64,000 nt of DNA, from assembly GCF_026241205.1 (NCBI RefSeq), contig NZ_JAPFQM010000001.1, positions 1,054,001-1,118,000 on the forward strand, given 5' to 3'. Below are positions 40,626 through 43,128 of the stretch, piece by piece. The notes beneath the pieces were generated by a model. The model was not told the DNA's origin and did not search any database. It worked only from the letters and a program-made list of their open reading frames with translations. A program made the translations under genes and the position numbers. Each line of letters begins with the position of its first letter. The first letter of the stretch is position 1. The DNA comes from Thermomicrobium sp. 4228-Ro. Its GTDB lineage: Bacteria > Chloroflexota > Chloroflexia > Thermomicrobiales > Thermomicrobiaceae.

Positions 40626-40653
40626 TTGCTCACGTCGTGTTTTCCCGTATACT
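40626..40653 (+). promoter_or_regulatory. Sigma-70-like promoter of the serA leader transcript
   Basis: TTGCTC (40626-40631), a 16-base spacer and TATACT (40648-40653). Start of transcription would be about 40660, leaving roughly 55 bases before the leader ORF and 255 before serA. It is the best matching promoter in this part of the window. Confidence 0.65.
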
Positions 40654-40715
40654 ACAGTGAGCGCATCATTGCGCGACCGCAGTCGATGCCGAACCGTAAG
40701 GAGGGAACGAGAACG

Positions 40716-40949
40716 ATGAACCAGTACACCGCCTCACGAGTCGACCAGCGTGTCGTCTTCTTTACCGCGGCGGTGGGCTTCGGTTCCGGTTCGGGTTGCG
40801 GTCACGGCTCCAGTAGTCCCTCCGGTTCCACTCGCAGCGGTTCCGGTCGCCACGGAGACGCTGTGACGATCCGTTCGCTTCCTGTCACCGGCAGACGTGA
40901 ACCGGAGGGGATCCATGGAACGGCAAATACGGCTCGCCCTCGATCTTGA
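40716..40949 (+). CDS. Ser/Gly-rich leader peptide upstream of serA
   Basis: A 77-residue ORF with a near-perfect AAGGAGG before ATG 40716. Residues 20-48 contain 10 Gly, 9 Ser and one Cys among 29, the end products of the serine pathway, encoded almost only by GGT/GGC and TCC/AGT/AGC codons. The remaining sequence resembles no protein family. The stop at 40947-40949 lies 32 bases inside serA, so ribosomes finishing the leader pass over the serA ribosome site. The length, position and composition suggest a regulatory leader, not a functional protein. Confidence 0.7.
   Translation: MNQYTASRVDQRVVFFTAAVGFGSGSGCGHGSSSPSGSTRSGSGRHGDAVTIRSLPVTGRREPEGIHGTANTARPRS
40818..40909 (+). promoter_or_regulatory. 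Possible anti-Shine-Dalgarno helix of a serA attenuator
   Basis: CCCTCCGGTTC (40818-40828, inside the leader Ser/Gly codons) pairs over 11 consecutive bases with GAACCGGAGGG (40899-40909), then two more pairs across a bulged C. The right arm contains the serA Shine-Dalgarno site (GGAGGGG, 40904-40910; ATG 40915). The stem would hide the site, and a ribosome stalled at leader codons 32-43 would cover the left arm. A competing stem (40801-40811 with 40854-40867) excludes it. Confidence 0.6.
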
Positions 40950-43128
40950 CGGTGTCCTGACGGAGCATCCGGCGCCCTTGGCCCAAGCGGCCAACCGGGC
41001 TCTCGGGATGCAACTTCCCGATCACGCATTCGTCGATTCCCACGGCTGCAACGTTCCCGAGGCTGTCCGCCTCTGGGTCTACGGCCCCGGCGGACCAGCG
41101 ACGTTACTCGATCCTGCCCCCAACGCACCGCAGCTCCTGCGCGACGTGCTGCGCGCACTCGGGAGCGATCGTGTGGTCATCATCACGGCGCGACCGGAGC
41201 GCTCGCGCGCGACGACGGAGGAGTGGCTGCAGCGACACGGCTTTCCCCAGTGCCGGATCGTCTTCACCGACGACAAGGTGGTGGCTGCCCGTGAACTCGG
41301 CGTGACGCATACCATCGAGGACAGCCTGCGGCACGCGACATGCTATGCCGAAGCCGGTATCACCTGTTTCCTCTTGACGAACGAGCCCGCACCACCCGGC
41401 GAGTCGCCCTTCGTTGTCCGCGTGCCTGATCTGACCGCTGCCGTCCAATCGGTTCTCCGTCTCGTTGGGGCACCGCTCCCGACTGCCAGCAGCGACGGGA
41501 TGCTGCCGCGTCGGCGGCGCATCGTGGTCAGCGACGTGATCGACCAGCGTGCCCTCGAGCGGCTGGCCGCTGAGGCCGAGGTGATTGAGGTCGATGGCCG
41601 CGACAAGGAAGCGCTCTACGCAGCACTGCGCGACGCGGACGCCTTGATCGTCCGCAGCGAGACGCAGGTCACCCGCGAACTCCTCTCCCACGCACCGCGT
41701 CTCCGCGTGGTCGCACGCGCCGGTACCGGCGTCGACAATATCGACCTCCAGGCAGCGACGGAAGCCGGAATCATGGTCCTCAACGCACCCGGTGCCAACG
41801 CGGTCTCAGCGGGTGAGCACACGATCGCCCTCATACTCGCCATCTCGCGCTGTCTCATCGAGGCGAACGCAACGACGCACGCCGGACGCTGGGAACGCAA
41901 GCGCTTCCGCCCATTCGACCTCAAAGGCAAGACCGTGGGCATCGTCGGGCTCGGTCGTGTGGGATCAGTCGTTGCCCAGCGGCTCCGCGCCTTCGAGGTC
42001 CGCTTGCTCGGCTACGACCCGTACATTACCCGCGAACGCTTCGCTCAGCTCGGTGTCGAACCGGTCGACTACGAGACGCTGCTCGAGCACAGCGATATCG
42101 TCACGTTCCACGTCCCCGCGACGCCAGAGACCCGCCACATGCTCGACGCCCGGGCGATCGCCCGGATGAAGCGCGGTGCGATCGTCATCAACTGCGCGCG
42201 CGGCGAGATCGTCGATGTGTACGCACTCGCGGAAGCGCTGAAGAGCGGGCAGATCGCGGCAGCCGGTGTCGACGTGTTCCCCGAAGAGCCAGCGTACGAG
42301 AGCCCGCTGTTCGGCCTCCCGAACGTGGTGCTCACGCCCCACATCGGCGGCTCGAGCCGGGAAGCCCTCCAGGCGGTCGGCGAGATTATCGCCACGACGA
42401 CGCTGGCTGCCCTCCGTGGCGAAGTCGTCCCGAACGCGGTCAACCTGCCAGCTGCTTCGCTCCATGCACCGGAACTGCTCCGCCTCACCCAAGTGGCTGA
42501 GGCAGCCGGGCACCTCATCGCCGTGCTCCAGCCATCCCGCCCGTCGCACTTCCTCGTGACTGTTCACGGCCAGGTCGCACCGGATATCGCCGAGCATGTG
42601 ACAGCAGTGGCGCTCGCAGCGGCACTCCGGCGCTGGACGGTACGACGCGTGACACCCGTCAATGGCCGGCTGGTCGCCCAGGAACTGCACCTCTTCGTCG
42701 ACGTGCGCTTCGATACCGGCGCCTCGTCGGTACCCGAATTCAACTTCGAGGTCGATGGCGACCCGCCGCATCACGTCATGGTGCGCTGGGATCACCGCCA
42801 TGCCGGCATCATGGAAGTCGACCGCTTCTCGCTCGAGCGACCGCTGGCCGGACACATGCTCATCACGCATCACCGCGACCGACCCGGCATCATCGGCCGC
42901 ATCGGGACGATCCTCGGCCGCTATGACGTGAACATCGCGGGCATGCAGGTCGGGCGGCGCGAGCGCGGCGGCGAAGCGATCATGGTGCTGAACGTCGACG
43001 ACCCGATTCCGGAAGCAGCCTTGAACGAGATCCTGCAGGTGCCGGACGTGTGGACAGCTTATGTTGTCTCGCTCCCGGATCCTGTCGATGCACCGGCACC
43101 CTTTGCACCGGCTCTCGCTGACGACTGA
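40915..43128 (+). CDS. serA: D-3-phosphoglycerate dehydrogenase with N-terminal HAD phosphatase-like domain
   Basis: First enzyme of serine synthesis, 737 residues, where the usual long form has about 525. Residues 1-190 are a HAD domain with all four motif groups: DLDGVLT (Asp10, Asp12), IITARP (Thr), a Lys in FTDDK and IEDS. Residues about 200-737 are a complete long-form SerA: ARAGTGVDNID, NAVSAGEHT, GIVGLGRVGSV (NAD), INCARGEIVD, LTPHIGGSS (His), an ASB-like domain, and a C-terminal ACT domain (ITHHRDRPGIIGRIGTILG). A GGAGGGG site precedes ATG 40915. Confidence 0.9.
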   Translation: MERQIRLALDLDGVLTEHPAPLAQAANRALGMQLPDHAFVDSHGCNVPEAVRLWVYGPGGPATLLDPAPNAPQLLRDVLRALGSDRVVIITARPERSRATTEEWLQRHGFPQCRIVFTDDKVVAARELGVTHTIEDSLRHATCYAEAGITCFLLTNEPAPPGESPFVVRVPDLTAAVQSVLRLVGAPLPTASSDGMLPRRRRIVVSDVIDQRALERLAAEAEVIEVDGRDKEALYAALRDADALIVRSETQVTRELLSHAPRLRVVARAGTGVDNIDLQAATEAGIMVLNAPGANAVSAGEHTIALILAISRCLIEANATTHAGRWERKRFRPFDLKGKTVGIVGLGRVGSVVAQRLRAFEVRLLGYDPYITRERFAQLGVEPVDYETLLEHSDIVTFHVPATPETRHMLDARAIARMKRGAIVINCARGEIVDVYALAEALKSGQIAAAGVDVFPEEPAYESPLFGLPNVVLTPHIGGSSREALQAVGEIIATTTLAALRGEVVPNAVNLPAASLHAPELLRLTQVAEAAGHLIAVLQPSRPSHFLVTVHGQVAPDIAEHVTAVALAAALRRWTVRRVTPVNGRLVAQELHLFVDVRFDTGASSVPEFNFEVDGDPPHHVMVRWDHRHAGIMEVDRFSLERPLAGHMLITHHRDRPGIIGRIGTILGRYDVNIAGMQVGRRERGGEAIMVLNVDDPIPEAALNEILQVPDVWTAYVVSLPDPVDAPAPFAPALADD

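Follow-up and report, generated by a model that had tools for sequence, protein, structure and literature searches.

Why does the serA gene of Thermomicrobium sp. 4228-Ro begin inside another open reading frame? In a stretch of 64,000 nucleotides from this 3.07-Mb genome (the window), a 77-codon leader ORF runs across the serA ribosome site (SD) and ends within the gene. The original prediction, made from the letters of the window, took this ORF for a serine/glycine attenuator in which a ribosome stalled for want of charged tRNA frees the serA SD. Combining comparisons among relatives with RNA folding models, we infer that the leader is probably a serine-responsive, ribosome-mediated translational attenuator of serA. 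The features of the locus are collected in Table 1.

Table 1. Features of the serA leader locus (positions are those of the window).
Feature	Position	Strand	Details
Promoter	40626..40653	+	TTGCTC 40626-40631, spacer 16 nt, TATACT 40648-40653
Leader ORF ribosome site AAGGAGG	40698..40704	+	SD-like site before the leader start in 19/19 members
Leader ORF, 77 codons	40716..40949	+	ATG 40716; stop inside serA
Serine codon core, codons 24-43, SGSGCGHGSSSPSGSTRSGS	40785..40844	+	dense in Ser across 6 genera that use different Ser codons
Left (anti-SD) arm TCCCTCCGGTTC, within codons 34-38	40817..40828	+	covaries with the serA SD context in 4 genera
Inner hairpin between the arms	40830..40866	+	structure kept, sequence variable; several pairs double-changed within the genus
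Right arm GAACCGGAGGGG with serA ribosome site GGAGG	40899..40910	+	from predicted folds
Leader stop TGA	40947..40949	+	within CTT-GAC of the serA DLDG motif; starts 32 nt into serA
serA: HAD-like N-terminal domain, phosphoglycerate dehydrogenase and ACT domain	40915..43128	+	ATG 40915

The leader features that had been described for the window are all present, base for base. The ORF encodes MNQYTASRVDQRVVFFTAAVGFGSGSGCGHGSSSPSGSTRSGSGRHGDAVTIRSLPVTGRREPEGIHGTANTARPRS, and residues 20-48 of this peptide hold 10 Gly, 9 Ser and one Cys; if a serine frequency of 6% is assumed, the probability of at least nine Ser among 29 residues is 3e-5. Within the serine codons, CCCTCCGGTTC (40818-40828) is the exact complement of GAACCGGAGGG (40899-40909), and the longer arm TCCCTCCGGTTC is complementary to GAACCGGAGGGG around the serA ribosome site with one G-U pair. 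The promoter, described as good, deserves that description in part: both boxes are present at a 16-nt spacing and the -10 box is conserved among relatives, but the -35 sequence is a weak one and the leader region gave no match in a strict sigma-70 scan. A scan of the leader for intrinsic terminators found none, and the overlap of leader and gene leaves no room for one between them. An Rfam search at gathering and relaxed thresholds returned neither a T-box nor any other family; a match to the L31 leader (E 4.5) is at chance level and was rejected.

The gene downstream does encode a phosphoglycerate dehydrogenase (TIGR01327, 518 bits vs a cut-off of 454), and SerA proteins share 92-98% identity within the genus of the window. 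Its HAD-like N-terminal domain of about 190 residues (40915-41480 in the window) occurs in most Thermomicrobiales SerA proteins and is absent from those of other members of the class. Pfam is nearly silent on this domain and the best PDB hints, at E 0.15, are 5'(3')-deoxyribonucleotidases; it might be a fused phosphatase.

We collected serA loci from 61 genomes plus extra regions, all oriented to the gene strand, among which 19 Thermomicrobiaceae genomes from six genera (g1-g6, g1 being that of the window) have a readable serA 5' region. As predicted, a leader ORF upstream of and overlapping serA is conserved in the family: all 19 members have an SD-preceded ATG ORF of 59-79 codons, open throughout while the two remaining frames are both interrupted, and in all of them it stops 26-41 nt inside serA in a different frame. 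A TATACT or TATCAT box lies 61-96 nt 5' of the leader start in 18/19 by scan, and in the remaining locus, L033, a TATCAT was recognized by eye. What is kept 5' of this biosynthetic gene in 19/19 is, as in an attenuator, a translatable leader with start codon, SD and promoter.

Serine is concentrated in the same frame. The best 20-residue window of each family leader contains 8-14 Ser, vs 2-8 in an antisense control, and before the serA SD there are 10-18 Ser in the leader frame vs 1-10 in the other frames; the leaders of relatives are exemplified by WSSSSSRGSSSPSSSSSGSD (L014), SSKSSSSSSSRSSRD (L034) and VSSSSSRWSHSSSSTSSSST (L036). Beyond the family the pattern ends: a comparable conserved Ser ORF is found at 0/26 serA loci elsewhere in the order, and no Ser leader appears at about 68 correctly placed class-level loci (one incidental 8/20) or at 61 more distant ones. 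The serA 5' regions of other families of the order (L017-L029) carry instead a recurring TGCTACxCT, 100-200 nt before serA and followed by GC-rich stretches, which is possibly a different serA control region.

The TGA that ends the leader consists of the third base of the codon before an Asp in the serA xDLDG motif, followed by the GA of that Asp codon. Of the family members, 19/19 have a leader-frame TGA at one or other of two Asp codons, vs 8/26 order-level relatives (Fisher p 1e-6, uncorrected for relatedness). The comparison suggests that wobble choice within serA keeps the leader short.

Which amino acid would be sensed is indicated by what the genera retain. AGU and UCC dominate the serine codons of g1-g3 and UCA those of g5, while serine itself is kept; a run of codons for the pathway product is thus conserved as amino acid, with 10-18 Ser per leader, and the outgroups are without it. 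Glycine, which the original prediction had paired with serine as sensor, behaves differently: there are 9-13 Gly per leader in g1 vs 2-4 in g2, g5 and g6, and on account of this scarcity we rejected it as a co-signal. Upstream of glyA and serS no consistent Ser leaders were found. Leader dN/dS is about 0.8-1.2 within g1, g2 and g3 and 0.31 in g5, from which it follows that the peptide is not strongly constrained outside its serine content. Of the proposed Ser/Gly sensor it is the serine part that stands, and from these codon comparisons serine codons are the likely sensor of the serA leader.

The second element of the design, pairing of the serA ribosome site with the Ser codons, is supported by predicted folds and by compensatory changes between genera. 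In nearly all of the 19 minimum-energy folds the serA SD is paired with the Ser region of the leader or with the border of that region. We assembled an alignment of the arms by hand from nine sequences of g1-g4, with one bulged g3 base removed and with g5, g6 and L013/L014 omitted. In these nine members 98% of the cells of the 12-bp helix are paired, vs 32-63% in slid controls, and three positions are changed on both sides (e.g., G-C to A-U, U-A to C-G); 2 of 500 shuffles reached its covariation score. Double changes are found in the inner hairpin of g1 too. The helix extends over 12-15 bp in g1, g3 and g4, and pairing is weaker in g2, g5 and g6. From folds and counted pairs, then, the serA SD is predicted to be bound by the codon run of its own leader, an arrangement shared with the LEU element discussed below.

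When leaders were shuffled among synonymous codons, anti-SD pairing beat chance clearly in few members (p about 0.01-0.02 in L009, L012 and L033) and was not above chance in L013-L015 and L035; the family means were -20.2 vs -17.2 kcal/mol. Serine stretches rich in UCC are often complementary to an SD in any case, and UCC codons bring part of the match with them. Because this shuffle was only partly successful, covariation and folds carry most of the weight of the pairing claim. For its composition, the stretch 40780-40960 folds with unremarkable energy (z -0.13). A competing stem that had been proposed as a second state (40801-40811 with 40854-40867) can be drawn in the window and in two near relatives; in the other aligned sequences, which we inspected, it is absent, and for this reason we think it improbable that the stem is needed as a second state.

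We modelled stalling by folding only the RNA downstream of a ribosome and reading the probability that the serA SD is unpaired. This predicted probability is 0.03 for the window with no ribosome, and near 0 in most members as long as the ribosome has not reached the Ser core. Once the ribosome moves into the core, the probability climbs to about 0.3-0.7 in about 17/19 leaders; L036 showed no clear opening. In this model the claim that stalling covers the left arm and frees the SD holds in part for the window: a stall at about codons 30-38 would mask the arm, but with the arm masked the SD would open weakly and partially (P 0.1-0.4), a second copy of CGGTTCC close by probably being able to take its place.

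The anatomy of the leader is directly observed; from it we infer the switching and its direction, as follows. A transcript from the conserved promoter would carry the leader ORF, which extends across the serA ribosome site to a stop codon within the gene. When seryl-tRNA is plentiful, the Ser codons would be crossed quickly, and ribosomes would end atop the serA start region and occlude it, or the mRNA would refold with the SD closed; either way, little serA would be translated. When seryl-tRNA is scarce, a ribosome would stall on the Ser core, mask the anti-SD arm and never get to the serA start, leaving the serA SD free and allowing serA to be translated. The signal would come from serine codons being decoded, not from a fixed arrest peptide.

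Part of this scheme might suffice without the rest. If fluent leader ribosomes occlude the serA start and starvation simply removes them, the SD helix would be incidental. Such control by ribosome traffic alone would account for the stop 26-41 nt inside serA in 19/19, since a ribosome terminating there overlaps the serA initiation region, and for the weak SD pairing in g5, g6 and L015. It would not account for the compensatory changes and the 12-15 bp helix in g1, g3 and g4, nor for an SD predicted to be closed without ribosomes in most members, and we consider it unlikely. The leader might alternatively be an arrest peptide whose nascent chain responds to free serine or another metabolite. 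TnaC is such an arrest peptide, responding to tryptophan, and the N-terminal part of the leader is well conserved within g5 (dN/dS 0.31). Between genera, however, the peptide outside the Ser core is unlike, its dN/dS is about 0.8-1.2 in g1, g2 and g3, and synonymous Ser codons interchange, which makes a nascent-peptide sensor highly improbable.

Translational coupling would turn the effect of the leader around, its translation opening the SD helix or feeding reinitiation at serA, so that serA expression would go up because of the leader and serine would hardly be sensed, if at all. The leader does overlap serA, and a long overlap could permit reinitiation; the serA start codon, however, lies 26-41 nt upstream of the leader stop, which is far to go back for reinitiation, and coupling leaves the retention of serine codons in six genera unexplained. 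It has been proposed that reinitiation lets leader genes enhance expression (PMC4833913), but that work concerns non-overlapping leaders 10-11 nt away. We judge coupling improbable. As for a Ser-rich ORF that arises through composition only, or a small protein with a function of its own unrelated to serA control, GC-rich DNA often contains runs of UCC and AGU, and the fold energy is ordinary. Conservation in 19/19, limited to Thermomicrobiaceae and to the leader frame, the low antisense and outgroup controls and a stop kept inside serA nevertheless have largely refuted this already, and we give it almost no credence. Serine-responsive attenuation by a stalled leader ribosome is the reading we carry forward.

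The nearest relative of this design in the literature is the LEU element of actinobacterial leuA leaders, in which a run of Leu codons pairs with the leuA SD (Seliverstov et al. 2005, PMC1262725). For that element, which has no terminator, translation-level control was proposed, with a predicted pseudoknot and an alternative hairpin (PMC1262725). In the serA leader, too, codons for the pathway product are predicted to pair with the ribosome site of a biosynthetic gene, and there is no terminator. It differs in phylum, and in having serine codons and serA in place of leucine and leuA; it would resemble a LEU element in operation without belonging to that class, its codons being for serine and its gene serA. 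Polycysteine sORFs upstream of mycobacterial cysteine genes act by translational attenuation (Canestrari et al. 2020, as described in PMC13236596 and PMC9094748). They share with the serA leader a codon-run ORF upstream of a biosynthetic gene and attenuation of translation (there a response to starvation), but they are leaderless and made of Cys codons, whereas the serA leader is led by an SD, carries Ser codons and overlaps its target by 26-41 nt. Before the serA SD there are 0-2 Cys per leader, so this is not a polycysteine sORF.

Other systems share the gene, the signal or the logic. In Paenibacillus polymyxa, serA is preceded by a tRNA-Ser T-box riboswitch (PMC8002221): gene and signal, the charging of tRNA-Ser, are the same, but a T-box binds tRNA directly and acts by transcription antitermination, whereas the serA leader would sense through a translating ribosome. 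Leader codons or a stalled ribosome alter mRNA structure in the trp, his and ilv transcription attenuators and in erm-type translational attenuation (PMC1183508, PMC8274638). Unlike the former, the serA leader has no terminator; unlike the latter, where the signal is an antibiotic, its signal would be serine. A further difference is that it runs into the gene that it would regulate. Serine starvation is read through slow decoding of Ser codons in Bacillus subtilis sinR too, where UCN codons respond and AGC/AGU are insensitive (PMC3862929). There, in contrast to the serA leader, the codons lie inside the regulated gene, with no leader and no RNA switch, and AGU, insensitive in sinR, is common in serA leaders. 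Among open-licence PMC papers we found no serine leader peptide or attenuator, in Chloroflexi or Thermomicrobium or elsewhere, which agrees with the statement in the original prediction that no ribosome-mediated serine leader of such a design was known.

Other genes of the Thermomicrobiaceae have leaders of their own. Upstream of ilvB are conserved Ile/Leu/Val-rich leaders that end 160-200 nt before the gene (L149-L159, L151 being that of the window's genome; e.g., SLVVVILILTGLPLAGG), with a strong GC hairpin after them; these are probable branched-chain attenuators. The region upstream of leuA (L125-L141; L132 in the same genome) has, in several genera, a short Leu leader ORF of the form M..xSSLLxLSLSRPRxGA.., and in the genus of the window a T-box-like AGGGTGGTACCACGG and a GC hairpin with a T-run stand just upstream of it, an arrangement whose sequence suggests stacked tRNA- and ribosome-based control. 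No leader was found at trpE in the family. Since ilvB and leuA have them, control by leader peptides belongs to the repertoire of the Thermomicrobiaceae, and the serA leader differs from these others in overlapping its gene. We lean, with somewhat more confidence than doubt, towards regarding it as an undescribed, Thermomicrobiaceae-specific class of serine-sensing translational attenuator, in which the leader crosses the SD of its target, its stop is held by wobble in DLDG, and unmasking and occlusion are combined.

Leader-peptide attenuators cover about a dozen amino acids. For the serine pathway, the open-licence PMC literature that we found describes only T-boxes and the internal codon sensing of sinR. 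If our reading is true, serine would join the amino acids sensed by leader codons, and the strategy would be demonstrated in Chloroflexota. It would also follow that a sensor can be formed by UCC and AGU codons pairing with an SD that they resemble in complement, in the manner of the Leu codons of the LEU element. For a leader stop to lie inside the regulated gene, within its active-site motif, would be an unusual and readily testable design constraint.
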